Below are positions 6,318-14,416 of a stretch of 64,000 nt of DNA, piece after piece. The stretch's first letter is position 1. Every line of letters starts with the position of its first letter. A program made the translations under genes and the position numbers. The notes under the pieces are model-generated. The model was given only the letters and a program-made list of their open reading frames with translations, did no database searches and was not told the DNA's origin. This DNA is from Euzebya tangerina (GTDB taxonomy: Bacteria; Actinomycetota; Nitriliruptoria; Euzebyales; Euzebyaceae): contig NZ_PPDK01000001.1 of assembly GCF_003074135.1 (NCBI RefSeq), forward strand, positions 2,356,001 through 2,420,000, read 5' to 3'.

Positions 6318-6470
6318 GTACTGTCCCGCAGGTCCGGCCGCACTCCAGCCGGATGAGTCTCGCAATAGGGGAAGCCGGTCAGATGCCGGCGCTGACCCGC
6401 AACCGTAGGTGATACTCCGCGCCCCCCGGGGCGAGGACGTGCACGAGCCGGAATGCCTGTTCGGGACTGG
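6318..6470 (+). ncRNA. Cobalamin (B12) riboswitch
   Basis: The conserved B12-box core is at 6368-6405: GGGGAAGCCGGT, then GCCGGCGCTGACCCGCAAC and CGT. The 3' conserved element GAGCCGGAATGCCTGT is at 6445-6460. A closing P1 helix can form between GTCCCGCAGG near 6323 and CCTGTTCGGGAC near 6455-6466. It lies in the leader of the toroid-DUF4430-CWB2 gene and the following ECF genes. In the family, adenosylcobalamin binding turns the downstream operon off. This ties the operon to corrinoid supply. Outer boundaries are approximate. Confidence 0.93.
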
Positions 6471-6542
6471 CAGGAAGCTCCATCACCGTCGTGGCATACG
6501 GGCGGAGCCCCCACAACGTCCGGCACCTGTTCGACTCGGTCA

Positions 6543-6566
6543 GTGAGGGCCCGCTGGGCCCCTCAC
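6543..6566 (+). promoter_or_regulatory. Strong hairpin between riboswitch and start codon (expression platform)
   Basis: GTGAGGGCCC and GGGCCCCTCAC form a 10-bp G+C stem with one bulged base and a 3-base loop. It ends 15 bases before the GTG start. It lacks a U-run, so it could be an actinobacterial-type terminator or block ribosome access. Its switching by the riboswitch is inferred. Confidence 0.55.
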
Positions 6567-11724: not shown

Positions 11725-13571
11725 TCCACTTCGATGACGTCTCGGTCACGTTCGACGGTGAGGAGTGGCCGACCCTCTCACGAGTCACGCTGACGGTCGC
11801 CGAGGGTGATCTCTGCCTCGTCGTCGGTCCCACCGGCTCGGGCAAGAGCACGCTGCTCGGCGCCGCAGCCGGACTGGTGCCGCACTTCACCGGTGGCCAC
11901 CTCTCCGGGACGGTGCTGATCGGTGGTCGTGACACACGCGACCATCCGCCCCACGCGCTGGCCGATCTCGTCGGCGTCGTGGGTCAGAATCCGGCGGCGG
12001 GCTTCGTCACCGGGACCGTGGAGGAGGAGTTGGCCTTCACCATGGAGCAGCTGGGGGTGGCCCCGTCCGTGATGCGGCAGCGGGTGGAGGAGACCCTCGA
12101 CCTGCTCGGGTTGGCCGACCTCCGCGGGCGCCGGCTGGACCACCTCTCCGGCGGGCAGCAGCAGCGCGTGGCGATCGGCGCCGTCCTGACCGCCCACCCG
12201 CGGGTGCTCGTCCTGGACGAGCCGACGTCGGCGCTCGACCCAACCGCAGCCGAGGAGGTCCTGGGCATGGTGAGCCGGCTGGTGTCCGACCTGGGCGTCA
12301 CCGCCCTGGTGGCTGAGCACCGGCTGGAGCGGATCGTCCAGTTCGCCGATCAGGTCGCGGAGCTGGACGGCGCCCCTGACCCCGGTCGGCCTGGCACCGC
12401 CGCGGGCAGGCAGGTGTCCCGGGTCCGCTGCGGGGCCACCGCGGATGTCCTGGTCGACGCCGCCGTCGCCCCGCCCATCGTGGAGCTCGGGCGGGTCGCG
12501 GGCTGGCACCCAGTCCCGCTGACCATTCGCGATGCCCGCCGCCGTGCTGGGTCGTTGCGCGATCGTCTCGCTGGTCTGGAGCGCCCGGACGACCGTGCAG
12601 GGCCCGGTGGCGCGTCGCCCCGCGTCCAGGACGCCCGATCGGATCGTCAGCCCGTGCTCCGCGCCTCCGGGGTCACGGTCCGCTACGGCGACGCCGTGGC
12701 CGTCGGTGGCGTGTCGGTGTCAGTTGCGCCCGCGAGCATCACCGGCCTCATGGGTCGCAACGGTGCCGGCAAGACCTCGCTGCTGTGGGCGCTGCATGGA
12801 GCAGGACCTCGGCAGGCGGGCACGGTCGAGATCGCCGGTGTCGACCCACGGACCGCCGGCGCGGCCGAGCGTCGGGGACTGATCGCACTCGTCCCACAGC
12901 AACCTGGCGACCTGCTGTACGAGGACACCGTGGCGGCAGCCTGCGCCTCCGCGGACGACAGGGCAGGTGCTACAGCAGGGTCGTGCCGGGCGTTGCTCGA
13001 CCGGCTGGTGCCCGGTGTGCCCGCCGAGGCCCACCCGCGGGATCTGTCGGAGGGGCAACGGCTGGCTGTGGCGCTGGCGATCCAGCTGCTCGGCGACCCC
13101 GCGGTCGTCGCGCTCGATGAGCCCACCCGGGGCCTGGACTACGCGGCCAAGCGACAGCTGGCGGCGATCGTTCGCGGGCTGACAGCGAGGGGTGTGACCG
13201 TCCTGGTCAGCACGCACGATGTCGAGTTCGTCGCCTCCCTCTGCGACCGCGTCATCGTGATGGCGGATGGTGAGGTGATCGCGGACGGGCCGACCGCAGC
13301 GGTGGTCACGGCCTCCCCGGCGTTCGCCCCACAGGTCACGAAGGTCCTGGCCCCCCAACCCTGGTTGACGGTTGAGGAGGTGCGAGACGCACTGGCTCGG
13401 TCACAACCGACGGGCGCACCAACCCTCCCCACCGGGACTCCAACCCTCGCCACCGACACCACCAGCCCCGCCGGCGGCAGCCCGGATGGGACGGCCTCAC
13501 CGGACCGGGCTCCGCGATCCCGACCTACGCCGAGCCCCTGGCCCGCACCCACCGCCGGGGTCCGCCGATGA
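11721..13571 (+). CDS. ECF transporter ATPase, two ABC domains fused in one chain
   Basis: A 616-residue protein with two complete ABC ATPase domains in tandem, replacing separate EcfA1 and EcfA2. Domain 1: Walker A GPTGSGKST near residue 37, signature LSGGQQQR near 143, Walker B VLVLDEPTSALDP near 165. Domain 2: Walker A GRNGAGKTS near 346, signature LSEGQRLAVAL near 442, Walker B VVALDEPTRGLDY near 462. The second signature has E instead of the usual second G. A Pro/Thr-rich tail follows. The ATG overlaps the ecfT stop (ATGA) and I prefer it to longer readings that run back through ecfT. It would sit on the inner membrane face and power the importer. Confidence 0.92.
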   Translation: MIHFDDVSVTFDGEEWPTLSRVTLTVAEGDLCLVVGPTGSGKSTLLGAAAGLVPHFTGGHLSGTVLIGGRDTRDHPPHALADLVGVVGQNPAAGFVTGTVEEELAFTMEQLGVAPSVMRQRVEETLDLLGLADLRGRRLDHLSGGQQQRVAIGAVLTAHPRVLVLDEPTSALDPTAAEEVLGMVSRLVSDLGVTALVAEHRLERIVQFADQVAELDGAPDPGRPGTAAGRQVSRVRCGATADVLVDAAVAPPIVELGRVAGWHPVPLTIRDARRRAGSLRDRLAGLERPDDRAGPGGASPRVQDARSDRQPVLRASGVTVRYGDAVAVGGVSVSVAPASITGLMGRNGAGKTSLLWALHGAGPRQAGTVEIAGVDPRTAGAAERRGLIALVPQQPGDLLYEDTVAAACASADDRAGATAGSCRALLDRLVPGVPAEAHPRDLSEGQRLAVALAIQLLGDPAVVALDEPTRGLDYAAKRQLAAIVRGLTARGVTVLVSTHDVEFVASLCDRVIVMADGEVIADGPTAAVVTASPAFAPQVTKVLAPQPWLTVEEVRDALARSQPTGAPTLPTGTPTLATDTTSPAGGSPDGTASPDRAPRSRPTPSPWPAPTAGVRR

Positions 13572-14416
13572 GCACTCCAACCCACCAGTCGTCGGTTGGC
13601 GGTCGGGCCATGGTCGTGCGCATCTCCGGCCGTGGCGCCCTCATCCTGGCCCTTGCCAGCGGGGTCGGACTGGCGATGTTCACCTGGCCGCTGCTGCTGC
13701 AACCGGCCGCCGACTTCGCCCACGCCACCGACGCCCCCTTCATCTTCGTCGGGATCCTCCCGATCGTCCTGGCCATCGTCCTGGCCGAGATGGCTGACGG
13801 CGGAATGGACACCAAGGCCCTCGCGATGCTCGGGGTCCTGGCTGCTGTCGGAGCCGTCCTGCGACCACTCGGTGCCGGTCTCGCCGGGATCGAGTTGGTC
13901 TTCTTCCTCCTCATCCTGGCCGGGCGCGTGCTCGGCCCCGGATTCGGCTTCGTCCTGGGGTGTGTGACGCTCTTCACCTCAGCGCTGCTCACCGCAGGGG
14001 TCGGTCCCTGGCTGCCGTTCCAGATGCTCGCCGCCGGATGGGTCGGCATGGGCGCCGGGCTGCTGCCGCTCCCGCGCCTCCGCGGCCGTGCCGAGACCGC
14101 TCTGCTGGCGCTCTACGGTGCCCTGAGCGGCTACGCCTTCGGCTTCCTCATGAACTTGGCGTTCTGGCCCTTCACGCTGGGGGCGGACACCTCGCTGTCC
14201 TACCTCCCCGGTGGCGCGGTGATCGACAACCTGTCCCGCTTCGTCCTCTACACGCTCAGCACGTCGGCGGCTGGGTGGGACACCGGCCGAGCCATCACGA
14301 ACGCCGTCGCCATCCTGCTGCTCGGTCCCGCCGTGCTGGCCGCCCTCCGCCGCGCCTCCCGCCGCGCCGCCTTCGACGCACCGGTCACGTTCACCGCCAA
14401 AGCGCGAGACACCTAG
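13568..14416 (+). CDS. ECF transporter S component, predicted cobalamin/corrinoid-specific
   Basis: A 282-residue protein with about six hydrophobic segments and little outside them, as in ECF substrate-binding components (LILALASGVGLAMFTWPLLL, IELVFFLLILAGRVLGPGFG, LPFQMLAAGWVGMGAGLLPL). The order LPFQMLAAGWVG ... LYGALSGYAFGFLMNL resembles S components annotated next to toroid/DUF4430 genes. It overlaps the ATPase stop by 4 bases and ends the riboswitch operon. Cobalamin specificity is inferred from the riboswitch and the transcobalamin-like partners. Classical BtuM or CbrT motifs cannot be confirmed by eye. Confidence 0.85.
   Translation: MSTPTHQSSVGGRAMVVRISGRGALILALASGVGLAMFTWPLLLQPAADFAHATDAPFIFVGILPIVLAIVLAEMADGGMDTKALAMLGVLAAVGAVLRPLGAGLAGIELVFFLLILAGRVLGPGFGFVLGCVTLFTSALLTAGVGPWLPFQMLAAGWVGMGAGLLPLPRLRGRAETALLALYGALSGYAFGFLMNLAFWPFTLGADTSLSYLPGGAVIDNLSRFVLYTLSTSAAGWDTGRAITNAVAILLLGPAVLAALRRASRRAAFDAPVTFTAKARDT

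Follow-up and report, generated by a model that had tools for sequence, protein, structure and literature searches.

A stretch of 64,000 nucleotides of Euzebya tangerina DNA (contig NZ_PPDK01000001.1; hereafter, the window) very probably carries, at positions 6318-14416, a B12-repressed operon for corrinoid scavenging, in which surface proteins would capture the corrinoid and a dedicated energy-coupling factor (ECF) transporter would import it. A cobalamin riboswitch is followed by five genes on the same strand: gene 1 and gene 2, which encode the putative surface binders, and the genes for the T component, a fused A-A ATPase and the S component. The presence of B12 regulation, transcobalamin-like binders and an ECF importer together is best explained by corrinoid capture and import. 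A first reading of the sequence alone (the sequence-only reading) had proposed B12-regulated surface capture and import, and this proposal was upheld at the level of sequence by the riboswitch, the folds, the ECF genes and the presence of B12 enzymes in a genome without other recognised synthesis or import. The operon is far beyond chance, because the entire gene order is kept across the phylum.

The operon leader contains a cobalamin riboswitch aptamer (RF00174) at 6329-6478 on the plus strand, where all features of the operon lie, with the core GGGGAAGCCGGTCAGATGCCGGCGCTGACCCGCAACCGT at 6368-6406. In a search of 551 bases, the alignment spanned the full model and scored 31.0 bits (E 3.9e-6; gathering score, 31.5 bits). 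This match is the only one across the 4.78 Mb genome and, with the conserved core, supports the B12 riboswitch that had been proposed ahead of the operon. A default Rfam scan of the window reported tRNAs alone and missed the riboswitch, which a permissive scan recovered. Among the homologous leaders of relatives that were scanned, nine exceeded the RF00174 cut-off, at 32-42 bits. In named-genome loci with sufficient upstream DNA, the B12 core was present on the coding strand in 58 of 62 and on the opposite strand in 7. Folding of the leader by minimum free energy was not significant (z -0.77), and a terminator search of the leader found none. The model appears ill suited to leaders of this actinobacterial type. 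We also observed B12 cores in the leaders of L053, L060, L061, L063-L068, L070, L075 and L079, which RF00174 did not report at its gathering score. As the cut-off catches nine of the scanned leaders, and as the published annotation of S. lividans lists B12 leaders for cbiM and cobD only (PMC8079986), the regulon may have been overlooked for these reasons.

Gene 1 (6582-9281) encodes a secreted wall protein composed of a signal peptide, an alpha/alpha toroid (6702-7526), two tandem transcobalamin-like beta (SLBB/beta-grasp) domains (7563-7931 and 7956-8309) and three CWB2 (PF04122) cell-wall-binding repeats (8337-9278; E 1.1e-38), whose relatives in the Protein Data Bank (PDB) are the C. difficile Cwp8, Cwp6 and S-layer proteins. 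Gene 2 (9278-10573) encodes a signal peptide, a single transcobalamin-like beta domain (9464-9820), a low-complexity linker rich in Gly, Ser and Pro, and a C-terminal membrane helix; this hydrophobic segment (10490-10546) is followed by AAYRRREAPA and constitutes the membrane anchor. Signal peptides were judged by reading the sequence. The CWB2 match, together with the C-terminal helix and its RRR tail, bears out the proposal of two extracellular proteins, one wall-bound and one tethered to the membrane. CWB2 anchoring is the routine surface module of this genome. At least 163 CWB2 matches were counted in it, many in frames of 1000-3900 amino acids, indicating a very large wall-displayed proteome.

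AlphaFold models were built from homologue alignments and compared with the PDB using Foldseek. The beta domain of gene 2 (AF2 pLDDT 87.9), from which the fold of the homologous first copy in gene 1 was taken, matched the human transcobalamin beta domain best (5no0/5np4). Ranks 1-6 were occupied by human and rat transcobalamin with a probability of 1.00. Ranks 1-15 were transcobalamin or haptocorrin chains with one exception, 3u7z from Ruminococcus gnavus, which followed these six and is described as a putative metal-binding protein; no further fold in the list exceeded a probability of 0.7. A PDB profile search with the beta domain returned nothing meaningful. The toroid was modelled with 12-13 helices (AF2 pLDDT 94.6); squalene and drimenyl cyclases were its best matches, and transcobalamin and intrinsic factor appeared at ranks 22 and 44, respectively. 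In these models, the two-part architecture of the animal B12 carriers transcobalamin, haptocorrin and intrinsic factor, a toroid and a beta-grasp domain, is present by predicted fold and not by readable sequence. Unlike the animal carriers, which sequence profiles barely match, most relatives of the window operon split the toroid and beta domain over two anchored proteins, and gene 1 of the window has one toroid, then two beta domains, then CWB2 repeats. By eye, the toroid segment 'STGLA.QAL' resembles intrinsic factor; conserved cobalamin-contact residues are not claimed.

The sequence-only reading had named the beta domains DUF4430, a label that holds for the fold and fails for the Pfam family. 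The PF14478 model (cut-off 23.8 bits) found no match in the genome at E<=10 and matched one of 32 homologous beta domains (E 0.02), which rules out membership of that family. Curated libraries gave no more than hints of the toroid and beta domains. Pfam matched the toroid weakly; in NCBIfam, the toroid matched SCO2321_fam (E 5.8e-14; 51.8 bits against a cut-off of 300) and the beta domains matched SCO2322_fam (E 3e-9 and 8.5e-9; 37.3 bits against 85), all below the cut-offs, in part owing to circular permutation of the Streptomyces forms. These NCBIfam families share operon position and domains with the window proteins, and their Streptomyces members belong to the same conserved cluster; they are named from locus tags and carry no function. 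In the library searched, no relevant paper turned up on SCO2321-2325 or on cbrTUV/CbrU/CbrV. We take CbrTUV to be names for predicted cobalamin ECF transporters.

The ECF importer is complete, as had been proposed, and its components are encoded together. The T component (10570-11724) belongs to the CbiQ family (PF02361, E 1.3e-7), the A-A component (11721-13571) is a single protein of 616 amino acids with two ABC ATPase domains (two stretches of PF00005; ECF ATPase models, E ~1e-73), and the S component (13568-14416) matches PF12822 above its cut-off (E 1.5e-8). Of 30 homologues, 29 also match PF12822. Matches of S to Kv4 channels in the PDB were attributed to chance. As no CbiC, CobN, CobS or FecCD/BtuC permease was found in the genome, the operon is its only recognised B12 importer; the same genome contains six loci with B12-binding domains and a PduO adenosyltransferase. 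Both operon-bearing sisters and an operon-less sister of the same genus, G003, have 6-7 strong FecCD genes each, so that the window genome seems to be the one in the genus whose recognised B12 import depends on the operon. G003 may use a BtuFCD-type route instead, as it lacks the S component and has seven strong FecCD permeases.

The order riboswitch-toroid-beta-T-A-A-S recurs from the window's own order to Streptomyces, Amycolatopsis, Micromonospora and Nocardioides. Scanning the genome collection with the S family yielded at least 578 related stretches, and the 80 that were kept include these four genera as well as Actinomadura, Kribbella, Knoellia and Janibacter. Of 98 loci, 72 encode the toroid and the beta domain as separate proteins and only 8 encode a fusion. 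Fusions to CWB2 were found solely at the window, L050, L051 and L053, that is, in this genus and one other genome. At the other loci, a C-terminal membrane helix was present in 51 of 96 toroid proteins and 88 of 129 beta proteins. At the Micromonospora loci, the toroid/beta cassette and the leader core are each present twice. Streptomyces-type loci show circular permutation of both domains: the beta profile is matched in the order 55-103 then 1-65 (L065, L066, L083 and L067), and the toroid profile with 103-261 ahead of 3-98 (L065, L066, L083, L056 and L063). In L056 and L063, the toroid is permuted and the beta domain is not; the two permutations look independent.

We infer ligand binding and hand-off in the following form. 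When cobalamin is scarce, the riboswitch would permit expression of the operon. The surface toroid and the transcobalamin-like beta domains, carried by the CWB2 wall protein and the membrane-tethered protein, would then close on a corrinoid and so concentrate it locally at the membrane, where the ECF S component would take it up and the T/A-A module would power its import. The mode of hand-off that we favour is a split transcobalamin, in which an ancestral toroid protein and a beta protein would jointly bind one corrinoid; fusion and wall anchoring of one copy of the toroid/beta pair would have followed in this genus, so that gene 1 of the window would be an elaboration. In its general form, the proposal is that two separately anchored actinobacterial surface proteins act in trans as a clamp on the corrinoid, docking it onto a dedicated S component of the ECF type, the animal carriers being the fused form. 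We put this forward tentatively. It is favoured by the 72 of 98 loci with separate domains against 8 with fusions, and by the observation that the alpha and beta domains of human transcobalamin, produced separately, assemble in vitro in a cobalamin-dependent manner (PMC5599065). As most relatives place the toroid and the beta domain on different proteins, the products of gene 1 and gene 2 may together make up a single, split binder instead of two that act in succession.

The latter arrangement would amount to the ordered relay of the sequence-only reading, in which the wall protein, as a complete binder, would hand the corrinoid to the membrane-tethered beta protein, and this protein would hand it to S. 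In this genus gene 1 does contain both halves, with gene 2 anchored separately and closer to the membrane, and several relatives have two toroid/beta pairs. However, gene 2 has no toroid, and because the toroid protein lacks a beta domain in 72 of the 98 loci, neither protein is a complete binder in the common layout. Binding to the wall through CWB2 is moreover limited to the window, two sisters and one further genome. We consider an ordered relay the less likely mode, conceivable in this genus, and prefer the split binder.

The specificity of S for corrinoid is one that we infer from context. The riboswitch sets the control of the importer and not the identity of its cargo, the beta domain of transcobalamin accepts cobinamide as well (PMC5599065), and T is CbiQ-like; the importer could be corrinoid-regulated while carrying a precursor, for example cobinamide, or a different corrinoid in place of cobalamin. 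However, the genome lacks CobS, so that cobinamide could not be completed by the CobS route, and the operon contains no gene of the CbiM/CbiN type, which leaves a cargo other than cobalamin improbable. An importer of folate or another vitamin, with surface proteins unrelated to the cargo, is highly improbable: the FolT subfamily model is the weakly nearest one for S and is matched weakly by 15 of 30 S homologues (best E 3.7e-6), but the window S scores 20.7 bits, far under the cut-off of 60, and across the phylum this S family occurs together with the conserved B12 leader and transcobalamin folds.

Several results weigh against corrinoid capture and import as the function of the operon. The riboswitch score falls 0.5 bits short of the RF00174 cut-off, and the leader core was not found in four complete named-genome loci and one Streptomyces locus. 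The nearest folds of the toroid are terpene cyclases, and the toroid alone is no proof of B12 binding. Comparison with intrinsic factor and transcobalamin by hhalign was weak both for the toroid (22% probability, E 0.001, in another repeat register) and for the beta domain (4% probability, E 0.0097, in the full-length register). PDB searches with S, by single sequence and by profile, detected no relative among solved S components; CbrT was not among the matches of these searches, in which S and CbrT were not compared directly. Finally, the presence of the operon is not strictly tied to lost B12 synthesis: among 61 genomes, CbiC was present in 1 of 21 with the operon and 8 of 40 without it, counts that point weakly to mutual exclusion of operon and synthesis.

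Related systems were predicted earlier. Burroughs et al. (2007) defined the transcobalamin-type SLBB clade, described fusions to toroids, second paralogues and CbiO/CbiQ neighbours in genomes without B12 synthesis, and suggested a role in B12 scavenging as well as complexes at the surface (PMC1796856). This independent prediction, made for the Firmicute-type relatives, favours corrinoid capture and import by the window operon. The sequence-only reading, which had regarded such a relay as not previously shown, thus claimed too much novelty, as toroid plus SLBB proteins, a second paralogue, CbiO/CbiQ and B12 scavenging had been predicted in 2007. The likeness to the window operon lies in the secreted toroid/SLBB proteins, often as two paralogues, with a CbiO-like ATPase and a CbiQ-like protein. 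Their account focuses on low-GC Gram-positives and archaea, mentions 'actinobacteria' once, with regard to ComEA, and names no riboswitch; in the passages drawn on here, neither an S component nor circular permutation nor anchoring through CWB2 is mentioned. A further difference is that the DUF4430 model misses the beta domain of the window operon. ECF transport of B12 has been demonstrated for CbrT of Lactobacillus delbrueckii, likewise an ECF T/A/S importer tied to B12 (PMC5997447). In contrast to ECF-CbrT, the window operon has its own dedicated module, a fused A-A protein and surface binders, and its S component drew no match to the solved CbrT in the PDB searches. BtuG is a beta-propeller and the partner of the TonB-type BtuB. 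In gut Bacteroides, BtuG offers a functional likeness, as B12 is captured at the surface prior to import, but it is a surface lipoprotein of an organism with an outer membrane, unlike the window proteins (PMC6143338).

The additions made here are the actinobacterial branch with its riboswitch and S component, fold predictions for two families that lack a function, the layout split over two proteins, and the form anchored by CWB2. The operon provides a testable function for the SCO2321 and SCO2322 families and for an ECF importer that hundreds of actinobacterial genomes encode, those of Streptomyces among them, and points to a way in which many of these may acquire B12 without BtuFCD. It also offers a bacterial system, beside its importer, for studying ligand release by intrinsic-factor-like binders and the origin of the animal carriers. 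If the split transcobalamin is true, a bacterial two-protein receptor of this kind would have its fused form in the two-domain carriers of animals.

Four-base overlaps occur at the stops of genes 1-4 (CTGA, GTGA, ATGA and ATGA). The claim that all junctions are such overlaps thus stands, with the first junction conditional on a start of gene 2 at CTG 9278. Gene 2 has no in-frame ATG, GTG or TTG before the GTG at 9491, which falls within the beta domain and whose use would lose the signal peptide. The Shine-Dalgarno-like GGAGGT at 9264-9269 (plus strand) lies 8 bases ahead of CTG 9278, and in sister genomes the same junction reads GTGA (L050) or TGATG (L051 and L053). On these grounds, gene 2 probably starts at CTG 9278, where relatives use GTG or ATG; possibly, CTGA at this junction is a sequencing error for GTGA. 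For gene 1, GTG 6582 is the preferred start, as the alternative ATG 6453 sits within the aptamer.

Upstream on the plus strand, a gene at 4185-6212 encodes a toroid (TOR E 5e-74) and CWB2 repeats (CWB E 1e-139) without a beta domain. It ends 117 bases 5' of the riboswitch, its toroid is 48% identical to that of gene 1, and no such paralogue was seen at the sister loci L050 and L051. This gene is probably a tandem relative of gene 1, and whether it shares a transcript with the operon is not certain. The remaining neighbours are ordinary: on the minus strand at 1293-4245, an ECF sigma factor, a carboxyltransferase-domain protein and an LD-carboxypeptidase (S66), and downstream at 14428-16022, an Asp/Glu racemase (MurI-like) and a hydrolase of the metallo-beta-lactamase fold.

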